A model generated the notes under the pieces. It worked only from the letters and a program-made list of their open reading frames with translations. It had not been told where the DNA came from and made no database searches. A stretch of DNA of 64,000 nt from Stenotrophomonas sp. 57 (GTDB lineage Bacteria > Pseudomonadota > Gammaproteobacteria > Xanthomonadales > Xanthomonadaceae). The stretch lies in contig NZ_CP127407.1 in the NCBI RefSeq assembly GCF_030291075.1, positions 4,028,001-4,092,000 on the forward strand, written 5' to 3'. Positions 11,288 through 22,722 of this stretch are shown here, in pieces; within the stretch, counting starts at the first letter, position 1; the number at the start of each line of letters is the position of its first letter. The translations under genes were made by a program, and so were the position numbers.

Positions 11288-11364
11288 GGCTATGTAGCTC
11301 AGCCGGTTAGAGCACAGCACTCATAATGCTGGGGTCGGTGGTTCGAGTCCACCCATAGCCACCA
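11288..11364 (+). tRNA. tRNA-Met (CAT anticodon, elongator type)
   Basis: A 77-base cloverleaf with encoded CCA. The acceptor arm GGCTATG pairs with CATAGCC, the anticodon loop is CTCATAA, and the T-arm is GGTTCGAGTCC. Sequence and pairing resemble elongator tRNA-Met rather than the initiator. The last 17 bases form the left attachment site of the island, and the tRNA stays complete after integration. Confidence 0.95.
11348..11364 (+). repeat. Left attachment site (attL)
   Basis: The 17 bases TCCACCCATAGCCACCA at the 3' end of tRNA-Met recur exactly at 22706-22722. Together with the integrase gene 83 bases downstream this marks the left end of an integrated element of about 11.4 kb. Confidence 0.9.
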
Positions 11365-11425: not shown

Positions 11426-11459
11426 TGCTACAGCGAGTGCCCACAAAGTGCTACAGCGA
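11426..11459 (+). repeat. Left-end direct repeats, candidate integrase arm sites
   Basis: TGCTACAGCGA occurs at 11426-11436 and again at 11449-11459. The core TGCTACA also occurs twice near the right end (22613-22621 and 22625-22633). Short repeats at both ends of an element integrated by a tyrosine recombinase are typical of arm-type binding sites. The second copy overlaps the integrase start codon. Confidence 0.5.
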
Positions 11460-13010
11460 CGCGGTCAGATTTATACTTCGCGTATCGTCGTCCCCTCCCG
11501 TATCCGGGCCGTCTGGGGACGCACAGAACTCAACCGAAGCCTGCGAACCGGCGACCTCCGAGAGGCTCGCAGGCGCTTGATGTTGTGGGAAGCCCAAATG
11601 GGCGTCTTCCTGCACCAGATCGACCGGAACATTCAGTCGATGACCCGCGAAGAAATTGACACCATCTACCGCCAGTACCTGGCAACGAAGTTTGATGAGA
11701 TCGAGGCAAGGCTTTCCCAGCCTCTCGATGAAGACCAGAAAGACGGCACATCCTTCTACCTGAATGACGAAGCCCACCGCATCTCGGCGGCACTGGCCTT
11801 TGGGCAGGTGGACGAGCGCTTGCCGGAAGCCGCCCAGCTGGCCCCCAATGCAACCAGGGATACACAGCGCAGACTCGCAAGGCGCCTCTTGGAAGCGGAC
11901 CTTAAGGCCACCGTGGCCGAGCTAAAGGCACTTGAAGGTGAACCCTTGGAGCTTCCCCAGGAAATCCTTGCCACCACTGGCGGGGCCAAGGATCGGACGC
12001 AAAACTCACCCCTGCTCTCGCAGGTGGTTCAACTCTATTGCGAGGAACATATTGGCCTGAAGAAGTGGTCGGAACGCACCGCCGAGCAGAGCCGCAAGAT
12101 TTTCGAGCTGATCGTGGATTTGCTTGGGGACCGCCCCATTCACCAAGTTACCAAGGCCGAAATTCGCACCTTGGGTACGCAGATGCTTCAGCTGCCCAAG
12201 AACATGACCAAGATCTTCCCTGGCCTCACCCCTCGGCAGATCCTCGAAGCGGCAGCATCGCAGCCCGAGCTGCCGCGCCTGCAACCTCGCAGCATCAACA
12301 AGAACTATCAATACGTCCGTTCGCTATTCATCTGGGCCACAGAGCACGACCATCTGACCCAGAATCCAGCCACGATTTTGCGTGATGTCAACGAGGGACG
12401 CGCTCAGGATGCACGCAAGGCACTCGACGACGACGACGTGGCGAAGTTTATCAGATACACCAAGCAGCACGCCAAGGAGTCTTACGAGCTGTGGATATCT
12501 CGCATCATGGCCTATACCGGCTGCCGCATGGGCGAGGCAGCCAGACTGGAAAAGCGTGACGTCCGCCAAGTGGACGGATTATGGGTGTTCGACATCAATT
12601 CCGACCACCCGGAGAAGCGAGTCAAAACCGAGAACAGCCTGCGCCTGATCCCTGTGCATCCAAGGCTCATCGAGCTGGGGCTATTGGATTTTGTCAGCAG
12701 CTCCGCCGAAGGCTTCCTGTTCCCCCGCCGCATCCGGTACACCGATGACCCCAAGCGCAGCCCGGTGGACCTCCTGTCCAAGCAACTCAGCCGCTGGCTG
12801 CGAAAGGCCGGTGTGGAGGACAAGAAGAAGCAGGTGCAGAGCTTCCGGGAAACCATGGCCACCAAGCTAAAGGACCTGGGAACGCCGGAGTACCAGATCG
12901 CGGAAATCCTGGGGCACGAGAACAGCAACATTTCCACTGGCCGCTATGGCAAGCACACCAAGCTGAGCACACTGCACGAGGCTTTGGCCAAGGTCCACCT
13001 GCCGGTCTAA
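11448..13010 (+). CDS. Tyrosine-type site-specific integrase
   Basis: 520-residue integrase of the island. The N-terminal region (SRIVVPSRIRAVWGRTELNRS) resembles the DUF6538 arm-binding segment, followed by a SAM-like core-binding domain and the catalytic domain. Active-site residues: Arg near 359 (YTGCRMGEAARL), QSFRET near 464 where HxxR is usual, LGHE, and the nucleophile Tyr near 499 (GRYG). Gln replaces the first catalytic His. The GTG at 11448 is the first possible start, has no clear ribosome binding site and overlaps a candidate arm site. Reading outward from the tRNA next to attL is the normal arrangement for such islands. Confidence 0.9.
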   Translation: MLQRRGQIYTSRIVVPSRIRAVWGRTELNRSLRTGDLREARRRLMLWEAQMGVFLHQIDRNIQSMTREEIDTIYRQYLATKFDEIEARLSQPLDEDQKDGTSFYLNDEAHRISAALAFGQVDERLPEAAQLAPNATRDTQRRLARRLLEADLKATVAELKALEGEPLELPQEILATTGGAKDRTQNSPLLSQVVQLYCEEHIGLKKWSERTAEQSRKIFELIVDLLGDRPIHQVTKAEIRTLGTQMLQLPKNMTKIFPGLTPRQILEAAASQPELPRLQPRSINKNYQYVRSLFIWATEHDHLTQNPATILRDVNEGRAQDARKALDDDDVAKFIRYTKQHAKESYELWISRIMAYTGCRMGEAARLEKRDVRQVDGLWVFDINSDHPEKRVKTENSLRLIPVHPRLIELGLLDFVSSSAEGFLFPRRIRYTDDPKRSPVDLLSKQLSRWLRKAGVEDKKKQVQSFRETMATKLKDLGTPEYQIAEILGHENSNISTGRYGKHTKLSTLHEALAKVHLPV

Positions 13011-13717
13011 CAAGCTGCAACGTGCAGGCGTACTGCTTCCAAGTGCGCCTGCAGCGGCCTCGCTGCCCGCGCCAGACCCGCCCCCAGGTGCCACAGCACC
13101 CGCCCTCTGCTGGCCGGGTACTTGTGCAACTGGACCACCTTCCGCCGGCCGGCATTGTCGTGCTGTTCCCACTGTTTGTGCGTACCACCAGCCAGCCGGT
13201 GTAGCCATTTGGCGGCCTGCACCAGTCGGTAGCGGGCCTTGCGGTCCGGCTGCGCGTCATCCTGGTAGCGCAGCTGTACAGCAATCCAGATGGACAGAAG
13301 GGCGCTGGGGTCTACCTGGCGCTCTCGCAGGCGCGCCCAGATCTTGCTCGCCCGCTCCGCCGGCGGCTTCCCGACCAACCGGAAGGCCTCCTCTGGTGCA
13401 CCGCCGCGCATATAAAGAGTTACCAACGCCTCCCTAGCCTCCCTGACAGCCGGAAGATCCCGTTGTTCCTCTAGCCAATGCAGGGCAGCAACACGGTACG
13501 GCCGCAGCTCCGCAGCGGTGTAGCTGGGTTTTGAATAGCTGCCGTGGCGGCGGAAATGCTCGACATGGCGGCGGCAGTAAGCCTTGCTCAACCCGCTGCC
13601 TTGCTGCGCCATGGTGGGATGGCCGCAATCCAGCACTACGCAGGTTGCAAAGGCTGGATTGGCTTCTCTCATGCGCCGGTAGATGCCTTCCCGGCGTTTC
13701 TGGCGAACGGTGCTCAT
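13007..13717 (-). CDS. Island protein of unknown function with a zinc-finger-like N-terminus
   Basis: 236 residues, not recognised beyond its N-terminal part. Residues about 26-60 hold a C..C...C..H array (CVVLDCGHP, then YCRRHVEHFRRHGSY) like the zinc element found in some phage and HNH-associated proteins. The rest is helical, Arg/Ala/Leu-rich, with no catalytic motif I can name. Its ATG overlaps the stop of the polymerase-like gene (ATGA), so the two are translationally coupled. Its 3' end overlaps the integrase stop by four bases in convergent orientation. A DNA-binding partner of the polymerase-like protein is a reasonable guess only. Confidence 0.65.
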   Translation of the reverse strand: MSTVRQKRREGIYRRMREANPAFATCVVLDCGHPTMAQQGSGLSKAYCRRHVEHFRRHGSYSKPSYTAAELRPYRVAALHWLEEQRDLPAVREAREALVTLYMRGGAPEEAFRLVGKPPAERASKIWARLRERQVDPSALLSIWIAVQLRYQDDAQPDRKARYRLVQAAKWLHRLAGGTHKQWEQHDNAGRRKVVQLHKYPASRGRVLWHLGAGLARAARPLQAHLEAVRLHVAAC

Positions 13718-15057
13718 ACGCTTATGCCCCCCACTAATGGGGAGGACTGAGGATTCCCTATAGAGGAACGATGGAGCCCCGACGGTGGAGATCCCTCCAC
13801 CTCCACCCTGAGTTGTTGACCCAGTACATCCTTAGAAGCCTCTTCAAGCGCCCGCTTGGCCACCTCCATCCGGTGGTCAGCGACGAGGATGCAGTCATGG
13901 ACCGGTAGTGCCACCACACCGCGGTCTTTGAGCCGGAGCAGCGCCTCGACGATGATCTGGCTTTCGAGGTTCATCAATGCATGGGCCTGCCCCTTTTGGA
14001 AGAAGGGCACCAAGGCTGGGTGCCGCCGACTGATTCCCGCCACAACCGAATGCACCGTCTCGTGCTTGGCAAAGTGCGGCCTGGCCCCCTGCGGCATGCG
14101 CGACAGCATCTTGGTGCTAGCCAGTAGGGCGTTGAAAACCAGCTTCACGCCCTCGCGGTCGCCGCTCACCCCCGGTAGCTCGTAAAGGTCTCCATCGGGA
14201 GGCTCAATGCGCACAAGGGCATAGGCCGTCCTAACAGACATCTGGGCAAAATCCAGGCTGACCACGGGCGCGCCTTCGATGCGCAAGTAGTCCGCCCGGT
14301 CTTTCTTGGACATGTTCTGCCAGAAGCCGTGGTAGAGACGCCCTCCTTCCTGCAATGAGCCGTTGTTGAAGATGCGCCTGAGATACCGCTGGCCCAGGTC
14401 CACCTCCTCCGCCCCGACATACGAGATGTCAGCCTGGGCGAGCCACAGGTTGATCTGCTGCATCTGAGCACGGAGAGCACAAACCTCCTGCGTGTCAGGC
14501 AACGGCAGGGTCTCCGCCACACCCCTCACCTTGTCGCCGCGGAGCACAAGCGGATCACCCAGGAGCGCCTGGTTGCGCCCGATGTCCTCGTAGTGGATTT
14601 CGAGGTCGTCGATCCTGGCGGCCAGCCAAGGACTGGCCCGGATCATCGTGCGTTCTCCACCGAACCAGGATGCGTAGTAGCCGGGCTGCAGCTCGGCCGC
14701 GGCCACTTCCGGGTGGCATAGCAATTTCACGAGGTTCGGGAAGGCCTCCGTGAGGAAGGGGGCACGGCGTGCTTGGCCGGACAAGGCACCCTTGCTCATC
14801 TCGACCGTGAGCCAGGCATCGGGATCACCCAATGCCCGGTGGGCCAGGTCGCAGACAAGCGCCTCAGCGGCTGACTCATGGCGCTCCTGATCGGCTTTTC
14901 GACGCCGGCGCTGCCGCCTCTCCGCCTTTTCTACTCGCTCAAGCACTTCGGCAACGAGCTGCTTGCTCTTGGACGTTGCGGCATTCTTTCTTGGCCGGGT
15001 CAAAAAGCCTGGGCTTCTCGGCGCGGCTTTCGGGCGAGACCGCCCCAGCAGCCACAT
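13714..15057 (-). CDS. Diverged family A DNA polymerase-like protein
   Basis: 447 residues. The C-terminal half shows the three palm motifs of single-subunit polymerases in order. Motif A is VVSLDFAQMSVR (D269, R276; compare DYSQIELR). Motif B is REGVKLVFNALLAS (R301, K305; compare RRSAKAINFGLIYG). Motif C is LPVHDCILVADH (H387, D388; compare MQVHDELVFEV), and a later LRVEVEGSP resembles the PLLVEVGSG end of DNA polymerase I. There is no recognisable exonuclease domain. The first 220 residues, including a basic stretch at 46-56, are unfamiliar. The start at 15057 lacks an obvious ribosome binding site. A T7-like RNA polymerase relative is an alternative. Function is unknown; replication, repair or defence are all possible. 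Confidence 0.55.
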   Translation of the reverse strand: MWLLGRSRPKAAPRSPGFLTRPRKNAATSKSKQLVAEVLERVEKAERRQRRRRKADQERHESAAEALVCDLAHRALGDPDAWLTVEMSKGALSGQARRAPFLTEAFPNLVKLLCHPEVAAAELQPGYYASWFGGERTMIRASPWLAARIDDLEIHYEDIGRNQALLGDPLVLRGDKVRGVAETLPLPDTQEVCALRAQMQQINLWLAQADISYVGAEEVDLGQRYLRRIFNNGSLQEGGRLYHGFWQNMSKKDRADYLRIEGAPVVSLDFAQMSVRTAYALVRIEPPDGDLYELPGVSGDREGVKLVFNALLASTKMLSRMPQGARPHFAKHETVHSVVAGISRRHPALVPFFQKGQAHALMNLESQIIVEALLRLKDRGVVALPVHDCILVADHRMEVAKRALEEASKDVLGQQLRVEVEGSPPSGLHRSSIGNPQSSPLVGGISV

Positions 15058-15202: not shown

Positions 15203-18200
15203 ATGGACAAGGCAGCTGCTGCCGATATTCGTAATGCCCTTTTGGAGTTGCTGCCGGAGGACGGGACCACCCTGGGAAACCTGAAGCTGCGTACCCAGAT
15301 TGCTGCCATGCTCGGCGCCGAGGTGCCTGAAGACGACTACTCGGCCGCACGGGATGCCTTGGTGGCCGAGGGGCTGCTAGCCAAAGGCCAAGGCCGTGGC
15401 GGCTCGGTGCGGAAGCTAGTGGACCACGCGGCGCCGCTGACCTTGCAGGTGCAGGAGAAGCCCGCTGGTGCAGATGCTCCGAAGCCGATGCAGCCAGGAC
15501 TGACGCTGGCCCAGGCCAAGCGTGCAAAGGCCGAGGTCAAGGCCAAGCGTACCGACGAAGACAACCAGGTCATCGCCTACCGGCACGACCAGAAGCGCCG
15601 CAACAATCCCGACGTTGGCGTGGTCACCCCGGACAACGATCCTGAGCAGCCCAGGACGCAATGGGCCTACGACCCGCACATTGACCCTGCCTTGCAGTTC
15701 GATGTTGGCCGCGCACAGATTGAAACCCTGATCGACGACGCCCTGGCCAGCGGCGACGAGGCCACCATGCGCGCCGCGCTGGAACAGCTCAAGCGCCAGG
15801 CCGCGCCCTACCTCAACTGGACCGGCAAGGCCGAGCGCACCAGCTTCGAGGTGGACACCGTCAGCCTGCACGTCCACGAGCGCATCGACCCGGCCAGCAT
15901 CCTGGCCGTCATCCAGAAGCGCATGAAGACCGATGCGGGTAAGACCGCCACTGGCGACATGTTCCGCGCTTGGTTCGAGGAGCCGCTGCCGCTGCGCGAG
16001 GCGGTGGACTTCTATAAGCACGATCGCGGCTGGAGCAACCGTCTGGTGGCTGGCGACAGCCTGCTAGTGATGAACAGCCTGCTGCAGAAGGAGGGCATGG
16101 CTGGGCAGGTGCAGATGATCTACATCGACCCGCCTTACGGGATCAAGTACGGCAGCAACTTCCAGCCGTTCGTCAACAAGCGAGACGTGAAGGACCGGAG
16201 CGACAACGACCTGACCCAGGAACCGGAAATGATCAAGGCGTTCCGGGATACGTGGGAGCTGAACATCCACTCCTACCTAACCTACCTACGCGACCGCCTG
16301 CTGATGTCGAAAGAGTTGCTGCATGAATCGGGCAGCGTGTTTGTACAGATCTCGGATGAGAATCTGCATCATGTTCGCGAACTGATGGATGAAGTCTTCG
16401 GCGCTGAAAACTTTCTGTCCATCATTTCTTTCACGAAAGCAGCCGGCGGACTGCAGGCCTCGAACCGGATCGGCGCGATTCTTGATTACATCGTCTGGTA
16501 TGCAAAGGACGCGACGCGCGTTAAGTACAACCCGCTGTACTCGGAAAAGAGCGATCCCGCTGCGGATGGGTACACGTTGCTTGGGTTGCCGGGCGGCTAC
16601 TACAGGACTGTTAGTGAGAATCGGAAGCTGACCGGGGGTGAGGTTGATCCCGGGACTACGAACTGCATGTCGGTGCTGCTGACTAAGCCTGGACCTGGTT
16701 CCAAGTTTGACGTTGAAGCAAACGGCAAGATCTTCGATTCAGGTAATCGTTGGTGGGGAACTACGCCAGAGGGCATACAGCGTGTCCTAAAGTCGCTTCG
16801 CGCGGTCGTTTCTGACGGCGCCATTCGCCTTGCTTCTAGATTTCAGGAATTTCCCTACACTTCGTACTCGAATTTGTGGTCTGGATTCGGTGGAGCAGCC
16901 AACCCTGTGTATGTAGTACAAACCAATGAAGTCATCGTGCAACGCTGCATGCTGATGACGACCGACCCCAGCGACCTTGTTCTAGATCCCACGTGCGGCT
17001 CTGGCACCACCGCTTTCGTCGCGGAGAAATGGGGCCGCCGATGGATCACCTGCGACACCTCGCGGGTGGCGGTCACCCTGGCCAAGCAGCGGCTGATGAC
17101 CGCCAGTTATGACTACTACGACCTCAAGTACCCGCACGAGGGCCTGAAGGCCGGCTTCATCTACAAGACCGTCCCGCACGTCACCCTGAAATCCATCGCC
17201 AACAACCCTGAGATCGACGACCTCTGGGAGCGCATGCACCCGGCCATCGAGCAGGCGTTGGGCCAGCTCAACGCTGCACTGGCCGGCACCCGAATCCCGT
17301 TCAAGGTCACCGAAGGCGGACGCAAGGGCGAAGACATCGCCTTCGACGCCAAGGGTATCCACACGCTGCCCACTGGCGAGCAGGTGCCTGCCAACGCCCT
17401 GCTGGAATGGGAGGTGCCGTTCGACTTCCCGGCAGACTGCCCCGCCGCTGCCCGCACCGCGTTCGACGCATTCCACGCCGCGCGCCAGGCGATGCAGAAG
17501 AAGATGGACGACTCCATCGCCGCCCACGCCGACCAGGAAGTGCTGTACGACCAGCCGCAGGTGGCCAAGGACAAGCTGCGCATCACCGGCCCGTTCACTG
17601 TGGAGGCGGTGCCGTTCCCCAGCGTGATGGTGCTGGACGAGGCGCAGCCCACGGCCGAGGCCGACGCCAGCATCGCCCGCAGCGGCGAATCCGCCCGTCA
17701 GCACCGCTGGCGCGACGAGTTGTTGAAGGCCGGCATCCGAGGCAAGGGCGGGCAGATGCTTCGCTTCGCCGAGCTGGAGAGCCTGCCCGACACCCCGCAC
17801 CTGCACTGCACCGGCCATCTGGACACCGGAGAGCGCGTGGTGGTGTGCTTCGGCCCGGAGCACGCCGCACTGGAGCAGCGCACGGTGGAGTTGGCCATGC
17901 GCGAGGCCGGCGATCTGTTCCCGCGGCCGAAGATGATCGTGTTCTGCGCCTTCGCCTTCGATCCGGAAGCCGCCAAGGACATTGACGCCACCAAGGGCAT
18001 CACCGCCCTCAAGGCGCAGATGAACACTGACCTGCTCACCGAAGACCTGAAGAAGAACGCCCGCCACAACCAGAGCTTCTGGCTGATGGGTCAGCCGGAC
18101 GTGGAAGTCCGCACCACCAAGGACGGCAAGTATGTGGTCGAGGTACACGGCTTCGACTACTTCGACACCGCCAGCGGCGAACTGAAGTCCGGCGGCAAGA

Positions 18201-18463
18201 AGAACATCGCCGCCTGGAGCCTGGACACCGATTACGACGAGCGCAGCCTGTTCCCGCGCCAGGTGTTCTTCCCCATGGCCGGCAAGAAGGACGGCTGGCA
18301 CAAGCTCAAGAAGGACATCAAGGCCGAGCTGGACGAGAGCAAGCTGGATAAGCTGCATGGCACCGTCAGCTTGCCGTTCGAGGCCGGGGACAACCGCAAG
18401 ATTGCGGTGAAGATCGTCGACGACCGCGGTATCGAGTCGCTGAAAGTCATGGCGCTGAGTTGA
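15203..18463 (+). CDS. Type III-like DNA methyltransferase (Mod subunit)
   Basis: 1086-residue site-specific amino-methyltransferase. An N-terminal winged-helix-like region (about 1-75) and a linker precede the catalytic motif DPPYG near residue 308 (motif IV). The AdoMet-binding motif LDPTCGSGTT follows near 593 (motif I). This order, with the target-recognition region between, is that of beta-class methyltransferases such as type III Mod. The recognition region (about 16380-16960) has lower GC by eye than its flanks. A C-terminal domain of about 450 residues is longer than in classical Mod. AGGA lies 11 bases before the ATG. The Res gene starts seven bases after the stop. Confidence 0.9.
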   Translation: MDKAAAADIRNALLELLPEDGTTLGNLKLRTQIAAMLGAEVPEDDYSAARDALVAEGLLAKGQGRGGSVRKLVDHAAPLTLQVQEKPAGADAPKPMQPGLTLAQAKRAKAEVKAKRTDEDNQVIAYRHDQKRRNNPDVGVVTPDNDPEQPRTQWAYDPHIDPALQFDVGRAQIETLIDDALASGDEATMRAALEQLKRQAAPYLNWTGKAERTSFEVDTVSLHVHERIDPASILAVIQKRMKTDAGKTATGDMFRAWFEEPLPLREAVDFYKHDRGWSNRLVAGDSLLVMNSLLQKEGMAGQVQMIYIDPPYGIKYGSNFQPFVNKRDVKDRSDNDLTQEPEMIKAFRDTWELNIHSYLTYLRDRLLMSKELLHESGSVFVQISDENLHHVRELMDEVFGAENFLSIISFTKAAGGLQASNRIGAILDYIVWYAKDATRVKYNPLYSEKSDPAADGYTLLGLPGGYYRTVSENRKLTGGEVDPGTTNCMSVLLTKPGPGSKFDVEANGKIFDSGNRWWGTTPEGIQRVLKSLRAVVSDGAIRLASRFQEFPYTSYSNLWSGFGGAANPVYVVQTNEVIVQRCMLMTTDPSDLVLDPTCGSGTTAFVAEKWGRRWITCDTSRVAVTLAKQRLMTASYDYYDLKYPHEGLKAGFIYKTVPHVTLKSIANNPEIDDLWERMHPAIEQALGQLNAALAGTRIPFKVTEGGRKGEDIAFDAKGIHTLPTGEQVPANALLEWEVPFDFPADCPAAARTAFDAFHAARQAMQKKMDDSIAAHADQEVLYDQPQVAKDKLRITGPFTVEAVPFPSVMVLDEAQPTAEADASIARSGESARQHRWRDELLKAGIRGKGGQMLRFAELESLPDTPHLHCTGHLDTGERVVVCFGPEHAALEQRTVELAMREAGDLFPRPKMIVFCAFAFDPEAAKDIDATKGITALKAQMNTDLLTEDLKKNARHNQSFWLMGQPDVEVRTTKDGKYVVEVHGFDYFDTASGELKSGGKKNIAAWSLDTDYDERSLFPRQVFFPMAGKKDGWHKLKKDIKAELDESKLDKLHGTVSLPFEAGDNRKIAVKIVDDRGIESLKVMALS

Positions 18464-18470
18464 GCACGGC

Positions 18471-21293
18471 ATGACGACTCCCAAATCCCTGATCATCAAC
18501 ACGCCTTTTGAGGCGCCTCGCTGGCACTGGATAGACCACCAAGGTGGCCTGAAGCTGACCGAGGGACGCCGTCCAGCTGGCTACGAGATCTTCGACACCC
18601 GCCATAACACACGCCGCACCGAGCGCCTCGACCTGGTGGAGCGCATCCGTGAACGCGTCGGCGAATGGCGTGCCTCGGCCTACCCGGGCGTAACCACCGT
18701 TACCCGCAGCCTGCTTGAACACTGGCACAACGCCAGCGCTCGCCAGCATCCGTTCTACTTTTGCCAGCTGGAAGCCATCGAGACACTGATCTGGTGGATC
18801 GAAGCGCCGGCCGATTTCAAGCAAGGCATCTACGTGCCGGGCGATGGCGGACCATGGCAGCGGCTCTGCAACAAGATGGCAACGGGCACCGGCAAGACGA
18901 CGGTGATGGCTATGCTCATCACTTGGCAGGTGTTGAACGCACTGGCTTACCCGAAGCGCAACAAGGATTTCTCCCGCGCCATCTTCCTGGTTGCCCCCGG
19001 CCTGACGGTGCGCGAGCGCCTGCAGGTGCTCTATCCGGGGCACCCGGACAACTACTACGACCTGTTCGGCCTGTGCCCGAATGAGGCAATGCGCAGCAAG
19101 TTGAATCAGGCCGAGGTGCTGGTAGAAAACTGGCACACGCTGATGCCGCTAAAGCAGCAGGATCGGTCGGTGGTCAGGAAGGGACCGGAGAGTGACAAGG
19201 CATTCGTCCGCCGAGTGCTCGGGAAGCTGGCGCAGCATAAGGACATCGTTGTAATCAACGACGAAGCCCACCACGCTTATCGGCAGTCCCCCGATGACAA
19301 GCGCAGCCGCGACGTGAAGCGCCGGGCTGAGGAAATGGGCCTGGACCAGGAAGAGGCTACCCGCTGGATTGAAGGCCTGGACCGCATACACAAGGAACTG
19401 CGCATACAGTGTTGCTTCGACCTGTCCGCCACCCCGTTCGCCCCGACCGGGCGCAGCAACACAGAAGGCGGCCTGTTCGAGTGGATCATCTCCGACTTCG
19501 GCTTGAACGATGCCATCGAGGCGGGCCTGGTCAAGACCCCGCGGGTGGTCGTGCGCGACGGCGTAGTGCCGGATACGCAGACACTCAAACCCAAACTCTA
19601 TCACCTGTACCGCGACCCGGCTGTCCAGGAAGACCTTGGCCGCCGCGGGGCACAGGCCCATGAACCGCTGCCGCCACTGGTGCAGCAGGCCTACACCCTG
19701 CTCGGCGCAGATTGGCGCAGGACTGCCGAGGCATGGGCAGAAGCCGGCCACACCTCGCCTCCGGTGATGCTGACGGTATGCAACGTGACCTCCACCGCTG
19801 CGCGCGTGGAGCGATTCTTCACCGAGGGTGACGTGCATTGGCCTGAGATGCGCGACGCCAACCGCACGCTCCGGGTTGACTCCCGCGTGTTGGAGAAAGC
19901 CGAGATCGGCGAGAAGGCGGGCGCCGACAAGGACTACGAGGAGCGGCTGCGGGCGATTGTCGAGGCCGCTGCCATCCCATCCGACCGAAAGAGCGAGCTG
20001 CTGCAACTGCGGAAGGAAGAACTGCTGCGCGAGATCGTCGACAACGTCGGCAAGCGTGGGACAGCCGGCCAGGACCTGCAGAACGTCATTTCCGTTGCGA
20101 TGCTCTCCGAGGGCTGGGACGCCAAGAACATCACCCACATCATGGGCCTGCGCGCCTTCACCAGCCAGCTGCTGTGTGAGCAGGTAATCGGCCGCGGGCT
20201 GCGTCGCGTCGGCTACGACACGGAGCCTGTGGTCTGTCCCGACGGTGTCGAGCGGCAGTTGTTCGTCCCGGAGTTCGTCAACGTCTTCGGCGTGCCGCTG
20301 TCGGTATTCCAGGACCTGAGTGGCGAGGGAGAGGCGCCGCCGCCGCCCAAGCAGAGCACCCAGATCGAATCCCTGCCGGAACGGAACAGCCTGGAGATCC
20401 GGTGGCCAAACGTGGTGCGCGTGGATGCCATCGTGCGGCCGGGCCTGACTCTCGACTGGCAGGCGATGGAGCCTTTGCGCCTAGACCCTGCAGCCACGCC
20501 GCTGGCGGCAGAGATGGCACCGGCACTGGGTGGCGCCAATGCGTGGGACCAGATACAGGCCATCGACCTGGAGTTGCTGCCCGACGAGTTCCGCCTGCAA
20601 CGGCTGGTGTTCCAGGCCGCGCGCCAAGCGTATGGGCAGATGCAGGACCAATACACCGGCACGCCGGAGTACCTGGCGTTCCAGTTGATCCACCTGATCG
20701 ATGAGTTCCTCGCATCCGACAAGCTGGTGGTGCCCTCGCTGTTCCACCAGGAGCCGCTGCGCAAGCGCATCCTGGTATCCCTGAACATCAACGCGGTGGT
20801 CCAGCACCTGCTGCGATACCTGTTGCAGCAGAACCAAGAGCGCATCGAGCCGGTGTTCGACGAGGAGTTCCCGGTCGGTTCAACGCGATACATGCGCACC
20901 TGGTACACCACCAAGACATGCCAGCCAGCGCAGAAGTCGCAAATCAGCCACGTGGTGGCTGACGGCGCTTGGGAAGCCCATGCAGCCAACCTGCTGGAAA
21001 GCAGCCCGTTGGTGCAGGCCTACGCAAAGAACGACCACTTGGGCTTCCAGGTCTACTACATGTGGAACGGGGCCAAGCGCCGCTATATCCCCGACTTCCT
21101 GGTCCGCCTCGCTAACGGCAAGACACTGGTGTTGGAGATCAAGGGCGTCGACGACGACCAGAACCGCGCCAAGCGCTCGGCACTGGACGCATGGGTAAAG
21201 GGCGTGAACCAGAAGGGGGGCTTTGGCACCTGGGCGTGGGACGTGGCCTTCGAGCCCCACCAGATCCAGGACATCCTGGCAGCCCATGGTTGA
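18471..21293 (+). CDS. Type III-like restriction endonuclease (Res; BPTD_3080-type)
   Basis: 940-residue helicase-nuclease. Walker A MATGTGKTT lies near residue 135, the DEAH box INDEAHHAY near 263, and a helicase motif VI-like QVIGRGLRR near 568. A C-terminal PD-(D/E)xK nuclease site lies near residues 874-895 (PDFLVRLANGKTLVLEIKG). With the methyltransferase it should form an ATP-dependent restriction-modification complex that cuts unmodified DNA. It resembles the group annotated as BPTD_3080 family restriction endonuclease. All helicase and nuclease residues I can check are present, so the system looks intact. Confidence 0.88.
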   Translation: MTTPKSLIINTPFEAPRWHWIDHQGGLKLTEGRRPAGYEIFDTRHNTRRTERLDLVERIRERVGEWRASAYPGVTTVTRSLLEHWHNASARQHPFYFCQLEAIETLIWWIEAPADFKQGIYVPGDGGPWQRLCNKMATGTGKTTVMAMLITWQVLNALAYPKRNKDFSRAIFLVAPGLTVRERLQVLYPGHPDNYYDLFGLCPNEAMRSKLNQAEVLVENWHTLMPLKQQDRSVVRKGPESDKAFVRRVLGKLAQHKDIVVINDEAHHAYRQSPDDKRSRDVKRRAEEMGLDQEEATRWIEGLDRIHKELRIQCCFDLSATPFAPTGRSNTEGGLFEWIISDFGLNDAIEAGLVKTPRVVVRDGVVPDTQTLKPKLYHLYRDPAVQEDLGRRGAQAHEPLPPLVQQAYTLLGADWRRTAEAWAEAGHTSPPVMLTVCNVTSTAARVERFFTEGDVHWPEMRDANRTLRVDSRVLEKAEIGEKAGADKDYEERLRAIVEAAAIPSDRKSELLQLRKEELLREIVDNVGKRGTAGQDLQNVISVAMLSEGWDAKNITHIMGLRAFTSQLLCEQVIGRGLRRVGYDTEPVVCPDGVERQLFVPEFVNVFGVPLSVFQDLSGEGEAPPPPKQSTQIESLPERNSLEIRWPNVVRVDAIVRPGLTLDWQAMEPLRLDPAATPLAAEMAPALGGANAWDQIQAIDLELLPDEFRLQRLVFQAARQAYGQMQDQYTGTPEYLAFQLIHLIDEFLASDKLVVPSLFHQEPLRKRILVSLNINAVVQHLLRYLLQQNQERIEPVFDEEFPVGSTRYMRTWYTTKTCQPAQKSQISHVVADGAWEAHAANLLESSPLVQAYAKNDHLGFQVYYMWNGAKRRYIPDFLVRLANGKTLVLEIKGVDDDQNRAKRSALDAWVKGVNQKGGFGTWAWDVAFEPHQIQDILAAHG

Positions 21294-21298
21294 CTGAG

Positions 21299-21976
21299 TT
21301 ACTGGACGGAGAGGCGGTCCAGCAGGTTGCGGACCGATGACTTGTGCCACGTGCCACCACGTGGCGTGAGCATGCCTCTCTCGTTCAGGGCTTTTGCTAT
21401 GCCTCCCAGCGAGGAAACCCCCTCTGCTGCCAGCGCGTCCACCACCGGGCGCAGCTGGTTTGCATGGTGATCCGCCTTGCCGCGGAGGGCCGCCACGGCG
21501 TCGCCATTGCCCCTCTGGGCACGCTGCAGGGCAACCGCCCCGTTGGGATTCCCCAGCTTCCTGCCGCGCGCCTTTGCGGCCTGCAGGGCTTCCTTGGTGC
21601 GCTTGGAAATCGCCTCGCGTTCCTGCTGGGCGACCAAGGCCATGATGCCGACGGTCAGCTCGTTGGCGTCGGGCATGTCCGCCGCGATGAATCGAACTCC
21701 GCTGTCCCGCAGCGTGAGCAGGAAGGCCGCGTTCCGGGACAATCGGTCCAGCTTGGCAATCAGCAGCGTTGCGCCGGTCACCTTCGCCAAGTGCAACGCA
21801 CGGGCTAGCTCCGGGCGATCCGCCCTCTTGCCACTCTCCACCTCGGTGAAGGCTTGGATGACCTCGGCTCCCCGCTGCCGGACAAAGTCGGCAATGGTGG
21901 CCTGCTGAGCTTCCAGGCCGAGCCCGCTGCGCCCTTGACGGGCGGTGGAGACTCGCATGTAGACTACGACGCGCAC
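21299..21976 (-). CDS. Serine recombinase (resolvase/invertase family)
   Basis: 225 residues. The catalytic domain starts VRVVVYMRVSTARQG, with the nucleophilic Ser in RVST; LDRLSRNA and the EREAISKRTKEAL helix follow. A C-terminal DNA-binding region ends in LNERGMLTPRGGTWHKSSV. The GTG at 21976 is favoured because translation from 22021 would read through the 40-bp dyad and add 15 unrelated residues. It lies tail to tail with the Res gene (five bases apart). Serine recombinases of this size act as resolvases or invertases at nearby dyad sites; the dyad at 21977-22016 is a natural candidate. Confidence 0.9.
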   Translation of the reverse strand: MRVVVYMRVSTARQGRSGLGLEAQQATIADFVRQRGAEVIQAFTEVESGKRADRPELARALHLAKVTGATLLIAKLDRLSRNAAFLLTLRDSGVRFIAADMPDANELTVGIMALVAQQEREAISKRTKEALQAAKARGRKLGNPNGAVALQRAQRGNGDAVAALRGKADHHANQLRPVVDALAAEGVSSLGGIAKALNERGMLTPRGGTWHKSSVRNLLDRLSVQ

Positions 21977-22016
21977 GGTACAAAATCCCCTAACCAACGT
22001 TAGGCTATTTTGTACC
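21977..22016. promoter_or_regulatory. 40-bp dyad abutting the recombinase start
   Basis: Two-part palindrome: GGTACAAAAT (21977-21986) pairs with ATTTTGTACC (22007-22016), and CCTAAC (21989-21994) pairs with GTTAGG (21999-22004), around a four-base centre. All 32 arm bases match. It sits directly before the recombinase start and beside the divergent small gene. Likely roles are a recombination (res-like) site, an operator, or both. Confidence 0.7.
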
Positions 22017-22045
22017 ATCATTCATCATCGTCAGACAAGAACTCC

Positions 22046-22519
22046 GTGGAACAGCAAATCACGTCCAGACGCCCCTACTCGAACGGGGCCGAGCTACGCC
22101 GGGAAGTAGCTCAGCTTCGCCAAGAGGTAGCCTGGCTGAAGCGGCACTATCAGCAGACCGTACGGGCGGCCATTGACGTCCTGCCCTTTGAAGCATGTTC
22201 TCATTACCTCGGCCTAGACAACCTGAACTCGCAAGATGAACTGAATCAATTCCTCTACGACCTACGTAGGCTGGTCAAACAAGAGGCGGAACTGCTGCCG
22301 CCAAGGTTCCCCGGCGATGATGACCGCGTAGCTTGCCCCTTGTGCGTCAGCCACGCACGAGGTCCCTATAGGGGGCGGGGTGATGGTTGGGGTGCAGAGA
22401 GAGGCATTGACTTGCACCTACAGCGAGATGCCGGAGAGAACGGCTGCCACATCATGCAGGTGCTACGCGAACACGCGGTTCGTGAGTACCGCAGCAGAGA
22501 ACACAGTCTTGAGAGGTAA
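22046..22519 (+). CDS. Small island protein of unknown function
   Basis: 157 residues if begun at the GTG at 22046; a TTG at 22010 is also in frame but lies inside the dyad. The N-terminal 40 residues look like a short coiled coil (ELRREVAQLRQEVAWLKRH). The middle is helical, and the C-terminal half contains CPLC near residue 98 and later Cys/His residues that could bind zinc. No family is recognised. It is transcribed away from the serine recombinase with the 40-bp dyad between, and ends next to an unusual C8G7 tract near the island's right end. Confidence 0.5.
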   Translation: MEQQITSRRPYSNGAELRREVAQLRQEVAWLKRHYQQTVRAAIDVLPFEACSHYLGLDNLNSQDELNQFLYDLRRLVKQEAELLPPRFPGDDDRVACPLCVSHARGPYRGRGDGWGAERGIDLHLQRDAGENGCHIMQVLREHAVREYRSREHSLER

Positions 22520-22705: not shown

Positions 22706-22722
22706 TCCACCCATAGCCACCA
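22706..22722 (+). repeat. Right attachment site (attR)
   Basis: Exact copy of the last 17 bases of tRNA-Met. It is also the 3' part of a 14-bp inverted repeat (22684-22697 with 22713-22726), so the remnant can fold into an acceptor-stem-like hairpin ending in CCA. Confidence 0.9.

Follow-up and report, generated by a model that had tools for sequence, protein, structure and literature searches.

A 64,000-nucleotide stretch of the genome of Stenotrophomonas sp. 57 (contig NZ_CP127407.1, positions 4,028,001 to 4,092,000), hereafter called the window, contains an 11.4-kb integrative island at a tRNA-Met gene. One island gene, at 13714..15057 on the minus strand, encodes a 447-residue protein that is best classed as a member of the TV-Pol family, a minimal family A-type polymerase on an integrative island. 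Island replication is its most likely role, for which priming is the more exact term: the enzyme probably primes and extends the island circle, perhaps with an RNA primer, using a helicase and replicase of the host, with multimers split by the island's resolvase. The predicted fold, the conserved catalytic residues, the exact island borders and the recurrent gene company are directly supported. Part of what the analysis adds is a recurrent zinc-finger neighbor, a few RNase HI neighbors and, as judged from aligned residues, what looks like the disappearance of the ribose-gate residues of Pol I throughout the TV-Pol branch.

Identification and predicted structure of the polymerase

An earlier note on this DNA had proposed a highly diverged family A polymerase-like protein at this position. 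The open reading frame (ORF) is real, a single ORF read from an ATG at 15057, and its product need not stay unclassified, as it fits the TV-Pol family (PMC2579912). Pfam and NCBIfam scans recognized no family for the protein and no exonuclease domain, the latter as the note had stated, and PF00476 was absent from the families matched at E ≤ 0.1 by 68 TV-Pol members. PHROGs gave a match to phrog_4756 (function unknown; E 1.2e-22). Sequence searching returned 89 homologs at E ≤ 1e-3; the named organisms among them are few (Luteimonas, Novilysobacter, Rhodobacterales), and the UniRef name of one homolog begins "DNA-directed DNA polymerase family A palm". The island TV-Pol is distinct from the host's Pol I, which has its own gene.

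The first alignment (A1) comprised 68 rows, the window protein and 67 of the 89 homologs, with 22 omitted by eye for length or for belonging to the window protein's own cluster. A larger set of 141 sequences combined these 68 rows with 74 ORFs of at least 380 residues from TV-Pol loci, minus one duplicate. D269, R301 and K305 are invariant in A1, in which Q272, H387 and D388 are at least 90% conserved. Across the larger set R240, D269, R301 and K305 are present in 141 of 141 sequences, D290 in 140, D388 in 139 and H387 in 137; the two exceptions at D388 are a 308-residue row with a gap (P0041) and a misaligned row truncated close to the end of its contig (L069). Because this conservation extends across 68 and 141 sequences, the Pol I-type order and spacing of motifs that the note had described are not due to chance. 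Its individual motif residues held up for D269, R301, K305, H387 and D388, with the exception of R276, which is conserved in only 105 of the 141 sequences. An inactive relic was also considered and is disfavored, since the catalytic residues are retained across the 141 sequences.

TV-Pols were defined by Iyer, Abhiman and Aravind in 2008 by a thumb of two antiparallel helices, a hairpin with an Arg, a palm with two Asp residues, and fingers with an Asp and RxxxK (PMC2579912). Three of these four core features were found here. Structural matching of a predicted model recovered the palm fold, as had been anticipated. The RRM-like palm carries the two conserved aspartates, D269 in motif A and D388, preceded by H387, in motif C; strands 224-230 and 238-244 form the beta-hairpin (224-244) with the invariant R240; and D290, R301 and K305 of the fingers follow the first palm strand. 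In the thumb region the model has one long helix (residues 190-207), and a second helix was not identified. With this helix and the R240 hairpin lying before motif A, and with structural matches that start near residue 160, the earlier statement that no thumb is recognizable was too strong. The model also has an N-terminal domain some 165 residues long (approximately 20-185), built of helices plus strands. The last strand (418-421) is followed by a low-confidence tail, and the LRVEVEGS stretch, once read as a Pol I-like ending, is weak evidence. The top structural matches included yeast mitochondrial RNA polymerase (mtRNAP) and T7 RNA polymerase (RNAP), level with DNA polymerases.

In a profile alignment against 30 Pol I proteins, weak overall, D269-F-A-Q272-M-S274-V-R276 was set on the motif A sequence D-Y-S-Q-I-E-L-R and H387-D388 on motif C, so that D269 and D388 fall on the Pol I catalytic aspartates, in keeping with the earlier proposal. 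Several points weigh against reading the protein as a polymerase of this kind. The sequence-profile similarity between TV-Pol and Pol I is weak, a profile comparison with seven T7-like RNAPs did not align motif A, and PDB sequence searches with the TV-Pol protein and with a profile from its alignment gave zero matches. A PDB search with the partner alignment described below also gave zero matches. The activity of TV-Pol is itself predicted from fold and residues.

Ribose-gate residues and RNase HI neighbors

The Pol I alignment pairs S274 of TV-Pol with Glu-710 of E. coli Pol I, which discriminates against ribonucleotides according to the open text of Bebel et al. 2020 (PMC7581432). Glu occupies the equivalent of position 274 in none of the 141 sequences; the residue is small in 114 (A 39, G 38, S 31, C 4, T 2), Asn in 12 and another residue in 15. 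The residue after D388 is A, C, G or S in 140 of 141, including one misaligned truncated row, and presumably corresponds to Glu-883 of Pol I. At position 309, located by counting from K305 along a single helix, none of the 141 sequences has Phe. All 30 Pol I controls have Glu at the counterparts of both 274 and 389, and all 30 also carry Phe-762/Tyr-766. Since positions 274, 309 and 389 differ from Pol I, the positions by which Pol I bars ribonucleotides appear to be altered in the TV-Pol branch, and because these ribose-excluding residues are missing across the branch, the island primer may contain or consist of RNA.

Neighboring genes were counted by profile searches in six frames at 83 TV-Pol loci (80 of 118 relatives from a genome scan and three loci from viral contigs). 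Gene cluster 17, of which the L062 member alone was scanned, is RNase HI (PF00075, E 1.5e-36), and its profile was found in six of the 83 loci. The RNase HI frames overlap TV-Pol in L084 and L062 and lie 97 bp off in L057, all on the same strand. L053 has a 72-codon open RNase HI frame 465 bp from TV-Pol on the same strand, and the gene lies on the opposite strand in L038 (at 2.2 kb) and L077 (at 7.7 kb). RNase HI removes RNA from RNA-DNA hybrids, so a touching RNase HI gene fits RNA priming.

Other observations argue against an RNA primer. The placement of 274, 309 and 389 in the sugar pocket comes from alignment rather than from superposition, and the gate residue is N, F, L, M, V, I, Y or Q in 27 of 141 sequences. 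The number of RNase HI-bearing loci is small, and among them the gate residue is Met in L062 and Leu in L084, with Ala in L057 and Gly in L053; as two of the three touching loci are bulky at the gate, the presence of RNase HI does not track with a small gate residue. The characterized member CCPol, in addition, uses deoxynucleoside triphosphates (dNTPs).

TV-Pol might be a dNTP-using primase-polymerase like CCPol-MP of SCCmec, in which other residues make up for the absent Glu. CCPol is the only characterized relative and, in the open text of its description, CCPol-MP makes primers from dNTPs only (PMC7581432); the bulky gate residues of some members (27 of 141 not A, G, S, C or T) are consistent with such an enzyme. 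CCPol, however, retains equivalents of E710 and F762 (PMC7581432), whereas none of the 141 sequences of the TV-Pol branch has Glu at the first of these positions or Phe at the second (309 by counting from K305), and we regard this alternative as doubtful. In term searches of the open text, without supplements, of PMC2579912, PMC7581432 and PMC10061031, ribose-gate residues were discussed for CCPol alone (PMC7581432), the two papers searched for an RNase H enzyme gave none, and the main text of PMC2579912 contains no "RNase H" as a separate enzyme, no "ribonucleotide" and no "steric".

A single-subunit RNAP devoted to transcription of the island, comparable to T7 RNAP in its phage, would also fit the lack of Glu at the two selectivity positions. 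Among seven T7-like RNAP controls, six matched the motif A pattern, each having Gly at the corresponding distance from the Asp, and six matched the motif C pattern, in which the next residue is Ser in four and Asp in two; yeast mtRNAP and T7 RNAP were also among the top structural matches, tied with DNA polymerases. TV-Pol, however, has 447 residues against 883 in T7 RNAP, its motif A is DxxQ as in Pol I, and its recurrent company is recombinases, which make a transcriptional role unlikely.

Island borders and gene neighborhoods

The attL core TCCACCCATAGCCACCA (11348..11364, plus strand) is a direct repeat at the 3' end of tRNA-Met (11288-11364), and the attR core (22706..22722, plus strand) is a 17-nt direct repeat of the final 17 nt of that gene, giving an island size between att repeats of 11,358 bp. 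A search with the left flank located the tRNA-Met site in every one of 30 further genomes of the genus, and the right flank lay within 55 bases of the left flank in 29 of 29 congeneric loci (the 30 genomes minus G079). Empty sites join exactly at 11364/22723 in eight of these 29 (L126-L133), and no TV-Pol match at E ≤ 0.001 was found in 40 other genomes, 24 of them congeneric. These exact joins and the absence of TV-Pol from those 40 genomes indicate a precise insertion into the tRNA gene that is sporadic in the genus. The mobile-island setting proposed in the note is therefore borne out by att repeats, recombinases and exact empty sites. A prophage was rejected, as a Pfam scan of the seven island proteins found no phage structural family.

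Judged by record title, relatives from the genome scan belong mostly to Pseudomonadota, while six are assigned to Planctomycetota, to Desulfovibrio or Humidesulfovibrio (three), to Mycobacterium and to Nitrospira. Three of 52 candidate stretches from viral contigs were TV-Pol relatives, four records matched in a plasmid search, and a phage search gave 130 records, none spanning 80% of the TV-Pol query. Distant TV-Pol-like genes, annotated as hypothetical, were observed in a Rheinheimera phage (L123:859-2166) and a Vibrio phage (L124:622-2262), with phage genomes of 80-127 kb.

An integrase was found in 63 of the 83 loci, a resolvase in 51, and both together with the zinc-finger gene in 24. At the 43 loci flanked by at least 8 kb on both sides the integrase was found in 37, the resolvase in 33 and the zinc-finger gene in 23, and 42 had an integrase or a resolvase. 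The integrase and resolvase figures are raw counts rather than enrichments over a genome background, and the 83 loci themselves supplied the sequences for both profiles and for one of the two partner profiles. Both recombinase kinds are present in the window island, as in published TV-Pol neighborhoods. Pfam scans of single representatives near TV-Pols gave HsdM, HsdS and HsdR of type I restriction-modification (RM), GmrSD-like, RHS and Bro-N/KilA-C. Related proteins of about 1500 residues stand beside TV-Pol in L003 (4863-9362) and L082 (2919-7538), with RHS repeats in the L003 copy. Of the roles the earlier note had listed, island replication is the most likely one, and a defense polymerase acting with the island's RM pair is highly improbable: TV-Pol adjoins that pair, three type I RM clusters (the only type counted) occur in 11-13 of 83 loci, and PADLOC gave a match to PDC-S05, but this match is weak (E 0.021, 45 residues) and the recombinases are far commoner than the type I clusters.

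The TV-Pol gene is followed downstream, with a 4-base overlap, by a minus-strand gene for a putative zinc-finger protein of 236 residues (13007..13717). Its motif of C26, C31, C48 and H51, then R57 H58 G59, suggests zinc binding. The search found 197 homologs, and the partner alignment (A2) drew on 60 of the 120 listed among them; C26, C31, C48 and H51 are kept in 36 of 36 aligned rows. The gene occurs in 37 of 83 TV-Pol loci, always on the same strand and within 500 bp of TV-Pol. Against a partnership, it was not found in the other 46 loci (20 of the 43 fully flanked), and the protein is therefore not a universal TV-Pol partner. A zinc-like motif lies next to TV-Pol in five of the 46 partner-less loci, of which only L009 looks similar. 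Distance co-variation (r) with TV-Pol was 0.53 for the zinc-finger protein (35 loci), 0.30 for the integrase (59) and 0.25 for the resolvase (47). At 20 four-gene loci the values were 0.49, 0.30 and 0.21, with 0.52 for integrase and resolvase and 0.42 for integrase and zinc-finger protein. Because the integrase pairs co-vary similarly, a unit of TV-Pol and zinc-finger protein is only mildly supported. The idea that the neighbor is a detached part of TV-Pol was unsupported (hhalign probability 0.4%).

Proposed role

TV-Pols were predicted in 2008 to have primase and polymerase activity (PMC2579912). For the island we infer a cycle in which the tyrosine integrase would excise the element at the tRNA-Met att repeats, and TV-Pol, perhaps with the zinc-finger protein, would begin new strands on the circle, possibly from ribonucleotides, and extend them. 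Helicase and replicase would come from the host, the serine resolvase would separate multimers, and the integrase would reinsert the product. As a point against this cycle, neither a helicase for replication nor an origin could be recognized in the island; the Pfam scan of its seven proteins found no D5-like helicase.

A broader proposal, offered tentatively, is that the whole TV-Pol branch, which occurs chiefly in Pseudomonadota, consists of family A primases that have lost the Pol I ribose gate and use RNA, with RNase HI removing the primers in some members and the zinc-finger protein binding the template. If true, RNA primers would also be made by an enzyme that belongs to neither the DnaG nor the AEP family, and the branch would stand as a living intermediate on the way from Pol I to single-subunit RNAPs. 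The apparent gate loss and the few adjacent RNase HI genes make the proposed RNA-and-DNA synthesis a simple biochemical test, for which the compact and exactly bounded 11.4-kb island is a test system.

Other genes of the island

The gene order is integrase, zinc-finger gene, TV-Pol, methyltransferase, restriction enzyme, resolvase and small ORF. The tyrosine integrase (11448..13010, plus strand; DUF6538 and Phage_integrase, PF20172 1.1e-12 and PF00589 3.4e-12) lies beside the tRNA-Met att site. Two plus-strand cargo genes, a type III-like DNA methyltransferase (15203..18463; PF01555 6.3e-29, PADLOC MTase_III 2.2e-159) and a BPTD_3080-family restriction endonuclease (18471..21293; NCBIfam NF046055, 1140 bits with a cut-off of 800), form a pair at 15203-21293. 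The small serine resolvase/invertase is on the minus strand (21299..22021; PF00239 4.1e-28), and its true start is probably downstream of 22021. A plus-strand ORF of 169 residues and unknown function (22010..22519) overlaps the annotated resolvase start and has no convincing Pfam domain, its best match (E 0.045) being below cut-off.

A 40-bp imperfect palindrome (21977..22016) with 16 of 18 arm matches lies at the resolvase gene start. Its score of 16 was reached by none of 300 base shuffles, for which the maximum was 14, and it is perhaps a candidate resolvase binding or operator site. Look-alikes with GTAC-type arms and scores of 11-16 were picked out by eye in L065, L003, L002, L038, L022, L015 and L045; most resolvase-cluster genes of related loci have none. 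In L002, L003 and L065 the look-alike lies upstream of the resolvase, and its arms are changed yet still match.

Comparison with known systems

TV-Pol differs from Pol I in having no PF00476 match and no recognized exonuclease domains. With T7-like RNAPs it shares the fold, and the T7-like controls have Gly five residues past the motif A Asp (six of six pattern-matched); TV-Pol is about half as long, has a Pol I-like DxxQ motif A and no recognized promoter-recognition parts.

Features shared with published TV-Pols are the Arg hairpin, the two palm aspartates, the fingers Asp and RxxxK, an extra N-terminal domain, and a neighborhood with genes for resolvase, lambda-type integrase and Bro-N/KilA-C as well as RM operons. 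The subset with an N-terminal domain is accompanied by a gamma-delta resolvase, a lambda integrase or a transposase, in many cases with RM operons around them (PMC2579912). That domain was predicted there to be all-helical, whereas the model here contains strands too. A Zn-chelating domain is predicted to replace the thumb in one Gemmata TV-Pol and to stand alone in viral genomes (PMC2579912). Another subset is linked to a D5-like helicase, and PMC2579912 does not demand a helicase for the N-domain subset. In L067, from a species named in that paper, a DUF5906 protein adjoins TV-Pol and may be the D5-like helicase described there.

CCPol-MP, compared by its description in open text, is likewise a minimal family A polymerase with a small partner gene and a serine recombinase on a mobile island. 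It differs in keeping the E710 and F762 equivalents, in its MP and Cch2 helicase partners and in a complex described without a zinc-binding domain, whereas the island TV-Pol has altered gate residues and no evident helicase gene. Rice 2023 extended the CCPol-MP findings to the PolA-SSB primases of Bacillota (PMC10061031). These likewise join a family A polymerase encoded on a mobile element to a small partner, which was predicted to have an OB fold in 16 of 17 cases, with a helicase in 17 of 17. The TV-Pol branch, in contrast, is found mostly in Pseudomonadota, and its neighbor has an invariant C-C-C-H motif.
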